DNA of 64,000 nt, taken from assembly GCA_015075105.1 (NCBI GenBank), contig JABTUZ010000001.1, forward strand, positions 817,001-881,000, given 5' to 3'. The position numbers were made by a program, and so were the translations under genes. Each line of letters starts with the position of its first letter. The stretch's first letter is position 1. This document shows positions 7,508 through 12,780 of the stretch, in pieces. This DNA is from Leptospiraceae bacterium (GTDB lineage: Bacteria; Spirochaetota; Leptospiria; Leptospirales; Leptospiraceae). The notes under the pieces are model-generated. The model ran no database searches and had not been told where the DNA came from. It saw only the letters and a list, made by a program, of their open reading frames with translations.

Positions 7508-8287
7508 ATGAAACAAAAAATTTTTATTTTTTTTGTATTGATTTTTGTTTTAGACATACATGGCTTTGATATTAAAAAGAAAACCCTTTTAGATTTTACA
7601 AGCCCTGCCAATGCGAAATACCGTGACGGGGAAAATGTTATTGGATTTAATGATGTTTTCTTAACAGGGAAACCTTTGGTGTTTTTCCTAATCTACTATA
7701 AATGTCCAACAGTTTGCAATACTCAGTTGAATTCATTTTTTAAAGCTGTTAAGGAATTGAATCTTACACCGGGGAAAGAATTTCATCTCACTGTTTTGTC
7801 TTTTGATCATCATGAAACTCCAGAGCTTGCTTTAAAGAAAAAAAATGCTTACATGGAAGAATTTGAAAAATCCGGCAAGAAGGCAGACTTTCGATTTTTA
7901 ACAGGAGACAAAGAAAGCATCCAACAAATCACCGATTCTTTACGGTTTACTTTTTATTTTGATAAAAATGAAAAACAGTGGGTTCATCCTGTAGGTGCTT
8001 ATATTTACACAAGTGAAGGTCGCTTTTTTAGAAAAATCGGAGGAACGATATTTCAACCTGAGACTCTGTACTATACTTTAGCAGAGATAGATCCGAGTAT
8101 CATGAATAGTTTTTCTAAAAAAGTTCATTTGTATTTTTTGAGATATGATATGATGGCAGGCGATTACAAACTTCACACTGATCGAATAGAGCATGTTTTG
8201 ATTCCTTTGTTTTTACTTTTCAGTGGAGCTTTTATTTTCTTTAAACTTTACAAGACTTTAAAACGCAAAAAAAATTATACAGGATAG
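7508..8287 (+). CDS. SCO1/SenC/PrrC-family copper chaperone
   Basis: 259 residues with an N-terminal signal/anchor (MKQKIFIFFVLIFVLDIHG) and a hydrophobic C-terminal span (about 228-245). The thioredoxin-fold copper site is intact: C66 and C70 in YYKCPTVC, and H160 in WVHPVG. SCO proteins deliver copper or keep the CuA cysteines reduced during cytochrome c oxidase assembly, which matches its place just ahead of coxB. An SD-like AAAAGGAG precedes the start. The C-terminal membrane span is an extra feature relative to many SCO proteins. Confidence 0.92.
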   Translation: MKQKIFIFFVLIFVLDIHGFDIKKKTLLDFTSPANAKYRDGENVIGFNDVFLTGKPLVFFLIYYKCPTVCNTQLNSFFKAVKELNLTPGKEFHLTVLSFDHHETPELALKKKNAYMEEFEKSGKKADFRFLTGDKESIQQITDSLRFTFYFDKNEKQWVHPVGAYIYTSEGRFFRKIGGTIFQPETLYYTLAEIDPSIMNSFSKKVHLYFLRYDMMAGDYKLHTDRIEHVLIPLFLLFSGAFIFFKLYKTLKRKKNYTG

Positions 8288-8291
8288 AAAA

Positions 8292-8717
8292 ATGAATTTT
8301 AAAATTACAGACCTTCCTTTACTCAATGCAAGCCTAAATCTATTCGCAACAATTTGTATTCTCTTGGCGTTTATTTACGTTAAGAAAAAAAAGATTCATC
8401 TCCATAAATTATTTATGGGTTTTGCATTAACAGCATCAGTTTTATTTATTGTATCTTACTTGGTTTATCATTTTAATATACCTGTGGAGAAGAAATTTCC
8501 TAAAGAAAATCCACTAAGACCGGTATATCTCACAGTTTTGATTTCCCATATTGTGCTCGCTATTCCAATGGCTCCGGTTGTTTTCACTGCATTGTATTTC
8601 GCACTAACAAAAAGGATTTCTAACCACAAAAAAATCGTAAAATTGGCTTTACCGGTGTGGTTGTATGTATCTGTGACAGGGGTATTGATATACATTTTTT
8701 TGAACCATCTGTCATAA
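8292..8717 (+). CDS. DUF420-family membrane protein (CtaM/YozB-like)
   Basis: 141 residues with four hydrophobic spans. LNASLNLFATICILLAFIYV, the His-rich HLHKLFMGFAL, YHFN and SHIVLAI match the DUF420 family, whose conserved histidines sit near membrane ends. The Staphylococcus member CtaM is needed to mature a heme-copper oxidase, and the family commonly lies beside SCO and cox genes. It starts four bases after the sco stop, so the two are co-expressed. Confidence 0.85.
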   Translation: MNFKITDLPLLNASLNLFATICILLAFIYVKKKKIHLHKLFMGFALTASVLFIVSYLVYHFNIPVEKKFPKENPLRPVYLTVLISHIVLAIPMAPVVFTALYFALTKRISNHKKIVKLALPVWLYVSVTGVLIYIFLNHLS

Positions 8718-8849: not shown

Positions 8850-9581
8850 ATGAACTTATTACCCGAAAATATCAGCACTTTCGGTACTCAAATAGATTCC
8901 CTGACTACAACTATAACTTATTTTGCGGTAATTTGGTTTTTTGTAGCCTTTGGGACTCTTATGAGTTTTTTAATATTGTATAGAAGAAGAAATGGCGTAA
9001 AAGCACACTATATCACCGGAAACACTTGGAAGGAAGCTAAGATCTTAGCGTTTTTTGTATTTTTGGTAGTATTAAGCGATTTATATATAGACATATTGAA
9101 TACAGGTGTTTGGAATCATATCAAAACCTATATCCCTCAATCCGAGGAAGTCGTAAAGATCAATGCTTTTCAGTGGAGCTGGTCTTATACATACCCGGGG
9201 CCTGACGGAAAGTTAAATACGGAAGATGACAAAGAGGCTTATGAGCTTCATGTTCCAATTGGCAAGAAGGTAGTGTTTGATCTAACTTCCAGAGATGTAG
9301 TGCATAGTTTTTGGGTGAAGGAGCTTAGGCTAAAACAAGATGCAGTTCCTGGCAGGACAATCAAGGGTTGGTTTGAAACAACTAAAATAGGCAAGTATGA
9401 AATCATGTGTGCAGAAATTTGTGGACTGAACCATTCTATGATGAAGGGCACTCTAATCGTAGATTCTTTGGATGATTATCGTAAATTTACAAACCAATTG
9501 TATGGGATTGCAGAGCAGAAACCGGCTTCAATCACCGGTACTCCTATGGAAAACAAAATAAAAAATAAGGAGGGAAAATAA
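8850..9581 (+). CDS. coxB: Cytochrome c oxidase subunit II
   Basis: 243 residues. The ATG at 8850 follows AGTGAGG (8834-8840), so it is preferred over an in-frame GTG at 8835. Two N-terminal membrane helices (about 22-44 and 65-83) precede the periplasmic cupredoxin domain. The CuA site is complete: H152 in VVHSFWV, then C187, C191, H195 and M198 in CAEICGLNHSMM. NAFQWSWSY is the aromatic patch for electron entry. There is no fused C-terminal cytochrome c, so this is not a classical caa3 subunit II. The stop overlaps the coxA ATG (TAATG). Confidence 0.96.
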   Translation: MNLLPENISTFGTQIDSLTTTITYFAVIWFFVAFGTLMSFLILYRRRNGVKAHYITGNTWKEAKILAFFVFLVVLSDLYIDILNTGVWNHIKTYIPQSEEVVKINAFQWSWSYTYPGPDGKLNTEDDKEAYELHVPIGKKVVFDLTSRDVVHSFWVKELRLKQDAVPGRTIKGWFETTKIGKYEIMCAEICGLNHSMMKGTLIVDSLDDYRKFTNQLYGIAEQKPASITGTPMENKIKNKEGK

Positions 9582-11251
9582 TGACCTTGACTCATGAAGA
9601 AAGTTTTATTCGTAAATATATATTTTCAACCGATCACAAAATGATTGGTAAACAGTATTTTATTGCAGGGCTATTTATGGCTTTTGTTGGAGGATTTTTA
9701 GCGTATGTTTTTAGGATGCAGCTTGCCTACCCCGGGCAGAGCATTCCATTGTACGGAAAATTAACTCCTATCGGTTACAACTCAATGGTTACTATGCACG
9801 GGACTGTAATGATTTTCTGGGTGGCAATGCCTTTGCTTCTAAGTGCTGCAGGAAATATACTGATTCCACTCATGCTCGGCACAGACGATATGGTTTTTCC
9901 AAAATTAAACATGCTATCGTTTTGGGTATTTTTTATTAGCATGGTTATTCTACTCGCTTCATTTTTTGTTCCCGGTGGTGCCTTTGGTGGCGGTTGGACA
10001 GCCTATCCTCCTTTATCTGCCGATGGATACCCAAAAACTCCTCCTCCACTTTATTCAGGGGGAACTCTTTGGGTAATTGCAGTTGCACTCGAATTTGTTT
10101 CCATGCTCATGGGTGGGATTAATTTCATCGTCACCACAGTCAACAAAAGAGCTAAAGGTATGGGTTTTATGGACATGCCTATAATGATCTGGATGTTGAA
10201 TTTAGCTTCCATTATTTTTATGCTCTCTGTGGGACCTTTAATCGCAGGGGCAATCATGCTACTTTTAGATCGAACGATTGGAACTGGTTTTTACGATCCT
10301 GCAAGGGGTGGGGACCCAGTTTTATTCCAGCATTTCTTCTGGTTTTTTGGCCACCCTGAAGTGTATGTTTTACTTTGGCCAAGCCTTGGAATGGTAGGTG
10401 AAATTATTACAAACTTTTCCAGAAAACCTCTTTTTGGATACAAAACAATCGTAATAGCATCCGTTCTGTCCGGTTTTCTTAGTATAATTGTTTGGGCACA
10501 CCACCAGTTTATTGCAGGGATAGACCCAAGGATGGCGAATTTTTTTAGTATTACTACGATCATTATTTCCATTCCTTTCGCGGTAATAGTATTTTCTTAT
10601 ATTGCTACATTTTTTAGAGGCTCTATAGAATTCAAGGTTCCAAATCTATTTGCAATCGGAATGCTTGCAGAATTTTTAGTAGGTGGGGTGACAGGAATTT
10701 ATTTAGGTTCTAGTGCATTCGATATTTATGCGCACGATACTTACTTTGTAATTGCCCACTTTCATTATACACTAATTCCAATAGTGTTCTTTGGAGGACT
10801 TGCAGGTACGTATTATTGGTACCCTAAAATTATCGGAAGAAAGATGAACGAGACTTTGGGGCAAATTCATTTTTGGCTTACCGCTATTTTCTTTAATATG
10901 ATATTTATGCCTTTGTTTTTTTCGGGCATGAAAGGAGAGCATAGAAGAATTTTTAGCTACACTGCGTTTGAGTCTCTAAAGTCCAATGAGGGAATTCGAG
11001 TGATTGCAACTATTGCAACAATTGGTCTCATTTTATCCCAAGCTGTGTTTCTATTCAATTTTATTGTAAGTCTTTTTAAAGGAGAAAAAGCAGAAAAAAA
11101 TCCTTGGAAATCGAATACATTAGAGTGGGTCGCTGACTCTCCGCCACCTCACGGCAATTTTCATTCAGAGATACAAGTGTATAGAGGGGCTTATGAATAC
11201 AGTGTGCCAAACAGGAACTCAGACTATTGGCCACAAAATGAAAAAAATTAG
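9581..11251 (+). CDS. coxA: Cytochrome c oxidase subunit I, A-type, without the K-channel lysine
   Basis: 556 residues, about twelve membrane spans. Heme and CuB ligands are present: H73 (TMHG), H258 with cross-link partner Y262 and E260 in GHPEVY, H307/H308 in WAHHQF, H393/H395 in AHFHY. The D-channel Asp is D103 in DDMVFP. By its HPEVY glutamate it is A1-like. In helix VIII, where Paracoccus-type enzymes read P-T-G-x-K-V-F, this protein reads IPFAVIVFSY (331-340), so both the K-channel Lys and Thr are replaced (I336, F333). It reduces O2 to water with proton pumping in relatives. A strong SD (AAGGAGGG) precedes the ATG. Confidence 0.96.
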   Translation: MTLTHEESFIRKYIFSTDHKMIGKQYFIAGLFMAFVGGFLAYVFRMQLAYPGQSIPLYGKLTPIGYNSMVTMHGTVMIFWVAMPLLLSAAGNILIPLMLGTDDMVFPKLNMLSFWVFFISMVILLASFFVPGGAFGGGWTAYPPLSADGYPKTPPPLYSGGTLWVIAVALEFVSMLMGGINFIVTTVNKRAKGMGFMDMPIMIWMLNLASIIFMLSVGPLIAGAIMLLLDRTIGTGFYDPARGGDPVLFQHFFWFFGHPEVYVLLWPSLGMVGEIITNFSRKPLFGYKTIVIASVLSGFLSIIVWAHHQFIAGIDPRMANFFSITTIIISIPFAVIVFSYIATFFRGSIEFKVPNLFAIGMLAEFLVGGVTGIYLGSSAFDIYAHDTYFVIAHFHYTLIPIVFFGGLAGTYYWYPKIIGRKMNETLGQIHFWLTAIFFNMIFMPLFFSGMKGEHRRIFSYTAFESLKSNEGIRVIATIATIGLILSQAVFLFNFIVSLFKGEKAEKNPWKSNTLEWVADSPPPHGNFHSEIQVYRGAYEYSVPNRNSDYWPQNEKN

Positions 11252-11260
11252 AGAGGGTTT

Positions 11261-11862
11261 ATGACTACTGCAAATACAATGCCAAATAACGTATCTATCG
11301 TGCCTAAGGGAAGACTCGCATTTTGGGTTTTGATTACCGGAGAGATTGCGATCTTTGGAGGCCTTATCGCAACATACATTTTACTTAGATTGAGATACCC
11401 TGAGTGGGCAGAACAAACCGCACTCACTTCTACACCACTTGGGGCGTTGAATACCTTTGTGTTACTTTCCAGTAGTTATACAATTGTTTTGGCTCATTCT
11501 TACGCTGCAAAAAAAGATTTTCAGAAAGCGTTTTACCTTATGCTTTTTACGGTATTTTGTGGTTTTATTTTTCTTGGGGTAAAGACAATAGAATATTCCC
11601 ATGAAATTTCACTCAGATTGACTCTTACTTCACCCGGGCTTGTAGCATCCGGTAAAGGGATCGGATCTTCTGGACATTTTACTATACTATGACTGGATTA
11701 CACGCAATCCACGTATTAGTCGGGATGACGATTATTTCTATCGTTATGTTTCAAGTGAAAAAAGGAAAAAACCTACACAGGGTAGAGTTAGTGGGTCTTT
11801 ACTGGCACATGGTGGATATTATTTGGATTTTTATATTTCCAATGCTGTACATTGCAAAATAG
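11261..11862 (+). pseudogene. coxC: Cytochrome c oxidase subunit III, in two frames (frameshift or split gene)
   Basis: The first frame (11261-11692, 143 codons) has the N-terminal half of subunit III: FWVLITGEIAIFGGLIATYI and later helices, ending SSGHFTIL then TGA. The C-terminal half, starting MTGLHAIHVLVG and including GLYWHMVDIIWIFIFP, lies in the next frame at 11689-11862. One extra T in the TTTT run at 11677-11680 would give HFYYTMTGLH and a continuous ~200-residue protein, normal for the family. Alternatively the stop and second start overlap as ATGA (11689-11692), so two coupled half-proteins are possible. A SD (GAGAGGG) precedes 11261. No classical slippery heptamer is present. Confidence 0.85.
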
Positions 11863-11873
11863 AGGAGAATTCT

Positions 11874-12197
11874 ATGCAAAAAAATGAAACTACCGAAGAA
11901 ATTGAGTACCACGGGCACCCTAATTATTTTCTAATATATACAGTTCTTGTAGGATTTTTATTGATAAGTTTGGTTGCAGATTGGATTCCTAATCATAAAA
12001 TAGCTGTCTATTTGATTTTTGTAACTGCAATTATAAAAGCCTATTTAGTGATCGCAAACTTTATGCACTTAAAATACGAGCCTTACGCTCTTATCGTCCT
12101 TTTTGGGTTTGGGGTTTGTGTCGGTTTATTTTTCTTTTTCGGAGTGTACCCGGATACCGTGATTGTACCTTTGGAAGTAGTGAAAAAACCTTTTTGA
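11874..12197 (+). CDS. Cytochrome c oxidase subunit IV (prokaryotic COX4/CyoD type)
   Basis: 107 residues from the ATG at 11874, which follows AGAGGAGAA (11861-11869). Three hydrophobic spans. FVTAIIKAYLVIANFMHLKYE is the hallmark of prokaryotic subunit IV (K-x-x-x-V...F-M-H-L). The protein stabilises the subunit I-III assembly in relatives. It begins 12 bases after the C-terminal coxC frame and ends one base before the next gene. Confidence 0.88.
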   Translation: MQKNETTEEIEYHGHPNYFLIYTVLVGFLLISLVADWIPNHKIAVYLIFVTAIIKAYLVIANFMHLKYEPYALIVLFGFGVCVGLFFFFGVYPDTVIVPLEVVKKPF

Positions 12198-12198
12198 A

Positions 12199-12780
12199 AT
12201 GAGTGCAACAAATAAAGAAATAGCAATGAAAAGTGAAATCATCCCAAGTGCTTATCTTGGGATGATAATGTATTTGTTTACTGAAGTCATGTTTTTTTCT
12301 GCTCTTATCAGTGCTTATATAGTCGGGAAGGCAGGATCCATGGTTCCATGGCCACCGGAAAATCAACCGAGACTCCCTGTAGAGATTACATTTTTCAACA
12401 CACTAATATTAATTTTCAGCTCTTTTACAATGTATTTTATTTTTCGATCCAATGAAAAACAAAAAATCCAAAAACTTCTTTTAGCTACAATTCTACTTGG
12501 AACAACTTTTCTGTTGATTCAAGGGTATGAATGGGTGCGTTTGATTGGTTTTGGAATGACTACTACATCCAATTTATTTGCAGGATTTTTTTACACTATT
12601 GTGGGTGCTCACGGTCTGCACGTAGTGATAGGAGTTGTAGCTCTTTCCTACTCTCTATATAGATTCAATCAAAGTAATGACTTAAGTGAGTCTAGGGTTT
12701 CATTACAGGCTGTGGGGATCTATTGGTTCTTTGTAGTTTACCTTTGGCCGTTTTTATACTATCTTTTATATTTATACTGA
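12199..12780 (+). CDS. Second cytochrome c oxidase subunit III-family protein
   Basis: 193 residues with five hydrophobic spans. YLFTEVMFFSALISAYIV, PVEITFFNTLILIFSSFTM, the GYEW segment, GFFYTIVGAHGLHVVIGV and the closing GIYWFFVVYLWPFLYYLL all match subunit III, with the conserved helix III Glu in FTEVMFF. It is clearly homologous to, but distinct from, the broken coxC upstream. If that gene is non-functional this protein may be the working subunit III; if both are intact the oxidase has two subunit III-like chains. Confidence 0.88.
   Translation: MSATNKEIAMKSEIIPSAYLGMIMYLFTEVMFFSALISAYIVGKAGSMVPWPPENQPRLPVEITFFNTLILIFSSFTMYFIFRSNEKQKIQKLLLATILLGTTFLLIQGYEWVRLIGFGMTTTSNLFAGFFYTIVGAHGLHVVIGVVALSYSLYRFNQSNDLSESRVSLQAVGIYWFFVVYLWPFLYYLLYLY

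Follow-up and report, generated by a model that had tools for sequence, protein, structure and literature searches.

Organization of the oxidase operon and the two frames of coxC1

Examination of the window, the whole stretch of 64,000 nucleotides analysed here (contig 1, positions 817001-881000 of a 3.42 Mb spirochaete genome that is assembled in 4 contigs and 99.97% complete), reveals a cytochrome oxidase operon with, according to the ORF list and Pfam matches, the gene order SCO1, DUF420, coxB, coxA, coxC1, coxD (COX4_pro) and coxC2. Its genes and the features of coxC1 considered below are as follows:

7508-8287, + strand: SCO1-like copper chaperone (PF02630), intact
8292-8717, + strand: DUF420 protein (PF04238), intact, an upstream oxidase gene like SCO1
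8850-9581, + strand: coxB, subunit II (PF00116, 2.4e-17), intact
9581-11251, + strand: coxA, subunit I (PF00115, 2.1e-134), intact
11261-11692, + strand: coxC1, N-terminal part (Cox3, 5-TM type), ORF of 143 aa (PF00510, 2.3e-06)
11653-11668, + strand: zone of the frame change (-1) in coxC1, from profile scoring; homology to orthologue L005 resumes at 11665
11658-11667, + strand: tandem GGATC GGATC in the sequence, candidate lesion
11656-11862, + strand: coxC1, C-terminal part, -1 frame, by translation (PF00510, 1.2e-08 for 11689-11859; 70% identity to orthologue L003)
11689-11692, + strand: ATGA, corresponding in orthologue DNA to the in-frame Met-Thr codons of MTGxH; Shine-Dalgarno score 1
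11874-12197, + strand: coxD/COX4_pro, caa3 subunit IV (PF03626, 4.9e-08), with its own Shine-Dalgarno sequence agaggag just past the coxC1 stop
12199-12780, + strand: coxC2, the doublet's second Cox3 (PF00510, 2.3e-19), intact

The mechanically listed ORF of coxD begins at TTG 11823 and overlaps coxC1; the likely start, judging from the agaggag just upstream, is ATG 11874.

The coxC1 gene, which is identical in the whole-genome copy and in the window, starts at 11261 and runs into a TGA at 11690-11692, and the remaining Cox3 sequence lies in the -1 frame and ends at 11862. Its N-terminal part consists of true Cox3 residues to about 11656 and of out-of-frame residues from there to the TGA. The ORFs and their translation thus bear out the initial annotation in its description of a coxC in two frames, with the ATG of the C-terminal part at 11689 and an ATGA at 11689-11692. 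Aligned to the five-TM bacterial form of Cox3 (PF00510; PDB 7q21 chain E and 6adq chain G), the two halves cover successive stretches, namely profile positions 121-180 and 198-255 with 28.1 and 35.5 bits, both above the curated cut-off of 23.8, and the intact orthologue L005 finds such Cox3 structures (e.g. 7q21 chain E, 6adq chain G) with matches up to 4.5e-23. The N-terminal part is 51-56% identical to its closest intact orthologues. The two-frame feature exceeds chance, since the alignment of an intact Cox3 orthologue continues past the break, with 51% and 70% identity in the two frames.

Position of the frame break

The frame had initially been taken to be lost in the TTTT run at 11677-11680. 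This run does lie at these positions; however, the frame of the C-terminal half is open from 11656, where it reads RDRIFWTFYYTMTGLHAIHV (...RDRIFWTFYYTMTGLH), with no ATG, GTG or TTG before 11689. Its segment IFWTFYYT (11665-11688) is homologous to intact orthologues, with the counterparts VFWTYYYT in L003, NFWSFYYL in L005 and VFWSFYYV in L006, and more distant Cox3 proteins carry an (F/Y)F..YF form at this place. We scored every possible break position against orthologue profiles: with a profile of six close orthologues, breaks at 11653-11668 reach about 280-284 bits versus 269-273 bits at 11677-11680, and with a wider Cox3 profile 221-228 versus 210-213 bits. Placing the break at the TTTT run costs 11-15 bits and leaves out the conserved FW motif. 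Because the C-terminal frame is open from 11656 and IFWTFYYT is homologous to the orthologues, we place the break at 11653-11668, in the variable loop about 10-25 bases upstream of the TTTT run. In relation to the five-TM Cox3 architecture, the frame is broken immediately ahead of the conserved FW..YY.MTG.H helix.

The only base runs in the break zone are AAA and GGG, and the zone also holds the tandem GGATCGGATC (11658-11667). A duplication of 5 bp would yield exactly the frame change seen in coxC1. The genome has 0.0019 tandem 5-mers per position, corresponding to a chance occurrence of about 2% in the zone. In terms of homology, a 5-bp duplication fares no better than a single-base change (280.4 and 284.2 bits), and the tandem GGATC is suggestive only as the lesion.

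A frameshift mutation or a sequence error

Among 296 genomes drawn from the phylum, 52 others contain a match to coxC1, and in none of them is Cox3 split: all the matches are single open frames without internal stops, and the break occurs in the present genome (G000) only. A scan of genome contigs for relatives recovered one order-level relative (L032) and no congener, a scan of viral contigs gave no match, and in the literature searched, with partial coverage, there was no bacterial coxC split like coxC1. Set against the intact orthologues by tblastn and profile scoring, coxC1 displays an isolated indel, and no decay is seen elsewhere in the gene and in the operon. The good conservation that both halves retain, together with an otherwise intact operon, makes a real and recent lesion probable; we propose, with a probability of roughly 60%, that coxC1 carries an ordinary recent frameshift mutation that is present in the organism.

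According to this proposal, coxC1 would be a normal five-helix subunit III gene with one small frame-changing indel at 11653-11668, for which the tandem GGATC duplication is the most natural candidate, with a change of one base there as the alternative. Translation would leave the frame in the loop, gain about 11 wrong residues and terminate at the TGA within ATG-ACT, and a full-length coxC1 product is not expected. The gene resembles single-event frameshift pseudogenes in having one small indel, conserved sequence on both sides, intact relatives and an intact paralogue nearby.

A less probable, though plausible, explanation is that the organism possesses an intact coxC1 and that the deposited sequence is off by a few bases at 11653-11668 through an isolated sequencing or assembly error. 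The conservation of both halves (51-70%) with no further decay, the intactness of all relatives and the otherwise intact operon speak for such an error; the contiguity and completeness of the assembly, the runs of at most 3 bases in the zone and the absence of other frame breaks in the homology-covered DNA argue against it. In a tblastn survey, 2,652 ORFs taken from relatives were compared with 864 kb of this genome, with coxC as the positive control; the method overlooks short breaks at gene ends as well as genes that have no relatives. About 237 kb was covered (the homology-covered DNA amounts by exact count to 228.5 kb over two tblastn searches), and coxC1 is the sole place therein where one protein continues in another frame. 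The covered DNA includes 1,222 homopolymer runs of at least 6 bases (6-10 bases), with no break at any of them. Since there is only one break in about 237 kb despite these 1,222 intact runs, a homopolymer assembly error is disfavoured, and a generally indel-rich assembly is unlikely. An earlier tblastn with the distant G011 only, which had low coverage, found no break. A coding-potential HMM run over the 864 kb for frameshifts was set aside as too insensitive in T-rich membrane genes, since it did not even detect coxC; the remaining weak pairs that it gave, part of which were checked, looked like ordinary adjacent genes.

Elsewhere in the genome, a MiaA-like P-loop ORF (G000:C1:362013-362957; L051:2013-2957) has no ATG, GTG or TTG near its conserved start (RALKKSNLFVISGPTGSGKT) and overlaps an upstream acidic ORF, possibly because it uses a rare start codon or because its frame is disturbed.

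Possible recoding or gene splitting and the meaning of the ATGA overlap

That full-length subunit III is still made from this sequence, by a -1 recoding of unrecognised kind within the loop ahead of the FW..YY.MTG.H helix, or that the gene is switched on and off through the GGATC repeat, is very unlikely. The recoding option taken by itself, i.e. programmed -1 frameshifting or transcript slippage leading to full-length Cox3, we consider highly unlikely: the required shift is indeed -1, no stop interrupts the -1 frame from 11656 onwards, and the proteins that would be read through a slip in the zone reach scores like those of real Cox3, but the codons from 11651 to 11692 (GGT AAA GGG ATC GGA TCT TCT GGA CAT TTT ACT ATA CTA TGA) contain no in-frame slippery heptamer of the form X XXY YYZ, and transcript slippage would need longer runs. 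Moreover, slipping at the only simple site, the TTT at 11678, would leave the FW motif out of the product, and no relative uses such a site.

The initial annotation had correctly recognized a frameshift in coxC and offered a sound list of options for it, namely an assembly indel, an inactivating mutation and a functional split, invoking the ATGA geometry in favour of the last. In such a true split gene the C-terminal half would be produced by termination-reinitiation at ATGA 11689-11692, and both parts would assemble into subunit III. The geometry is present and also common in the genome, where 69 ATGA/GTGA/TTGA pairs were located in 864 kb; because coupled pairs of this kind are so common, it has no weight by itself. 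Furthermore, the MTGxH motif is widely conserved in Cox3, and the ATGA of coxC1 represents its Met-Thr codons. Since Met-Thr is always encoded by ATG-ACN, the ATGA, with a TGA in the next frame, is inherent to the gene. When 31 homologous Cox3 genes are read into this place in the +1 frame, 9 first meet a stop at the equivalent TGA and another 16 at the preceding codon, which overlaps the position of the ATG; with 25/31 stopping at the ATG or one codon before it, an upstream shift of this kind usually yields an apparent stop/start overlap. The Met 11689 start has essentially no Shine-Dalgarno match: its score of 1 falls below those of all 69 coupled pairs (2-6) and within the lowest 5% of random positions. 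The ATGA overlap in coxC1 is hence best read, from these comparisons of homologous genes, as a by-product of the conserved Met-Thr pair and not as evidence of coupling. The same caution would apply to any ATGA overlap at a conserved Met-Thr pair within a protein family: it is no sign of a coupled split gene, because ATG-ACN always carries a TGA one base on.

Other features likewise speak against the split gene, which is highly unlikely. IFWTFYYT lies upstream of the ATG and would therefore be in neither product, the N-terminal half would carry about 11 non-homologous residues at its end, and no split Cox3 occurs among the 52 other genomes with a match. From the placement of helices in Cox3, a start at Met 11689 would cut into the core helix beginning at IFWTFYYT. 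A naturally divided subunit III is known in mycobacteria, where it is divided between TM2 and TM3 into CtaF and CtaE (PMC8361435), and coxC1 is similar to this pair in that its subunit III is not encoded in a single frame. The coxC1 break does not correspond to such a TM2/TM3 division: it falls in the core helix region, at the start of that helix, with no start codon or Shine-Dalgarno sequence upstream of the conserved residues.

Reversible phase variation through gain or loss of a GGATC unit is scarcely credible: two tandem 5-bp units do stand at the break, but there are only two copies, and known contingency loci usually have many repeat units.

The Cox3 doublet and the consequences of a possible coxC1 loss

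In five related loci (L004-L008) coxC1 and coxC2 co-occur, both intact, and the doublet flanks coxD in L004, L005, L006, L007 and L008 as it does in the window (11261-12780). Because the two genes stand intact together in these loci, the Cox3 doublet is ancestral and coxC2 a long-standing partner rather than a recent back-up. The earlier suggestion that the paralogue at 12199 had newly taken over from coxC1 is at odds with this arrangement. A Cox3 doublet is also found in the COX operon type a-III (PMC4013037), which the window and L004-L008 resemble in that a pair of Cox3 genes flanks coxD within a single operon; the present operon differs in its frame-broken coxC1, and the likeness concerns the doublet. 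The two Cox3 types differ in their core motif, (F/Y)W(S/T)(F/Y)Y..TG as against (F/Y)(G/A).FFY...G.H, which suggests, at the level of sequence, that they have distinct roles.

Subunits I and II form the minimum functional unit of the oxidase, and in many oxidases that lack subunit III, activity is lost as the enzyme turns over (PMC8361435). A Pfam search found no cytochrome bd in the genome. A second haem-copper oxidase locus is located at about 1,081,700-1,086,500 of contig 1, with a Cu-A-type subunit II and a haem o synthase nearby. Delimited more widely, this locus spans about 1078708-1086500 (G000:C1; L067:17708 to L068:5268), and it encodes a short Cu-A subunit II, a subunit I of 579 aa that weakly matches CtaD, a third COX1-like match, a 315 aa protein, a long ORF of 713 aa and the haem o synthase CtaB. 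If the frameshift mutation has indeed disabled coxC1, the cell would retain coxC2 along with this second haem-copper oxidase locus, and because both are present the loss of coxC1 may be tolerable in principle. The lesion, if real, would mean that an old Cox3 doublet has lost one of its partners in nature, and would open the question of the role that each Cox3 of the doublet plays.
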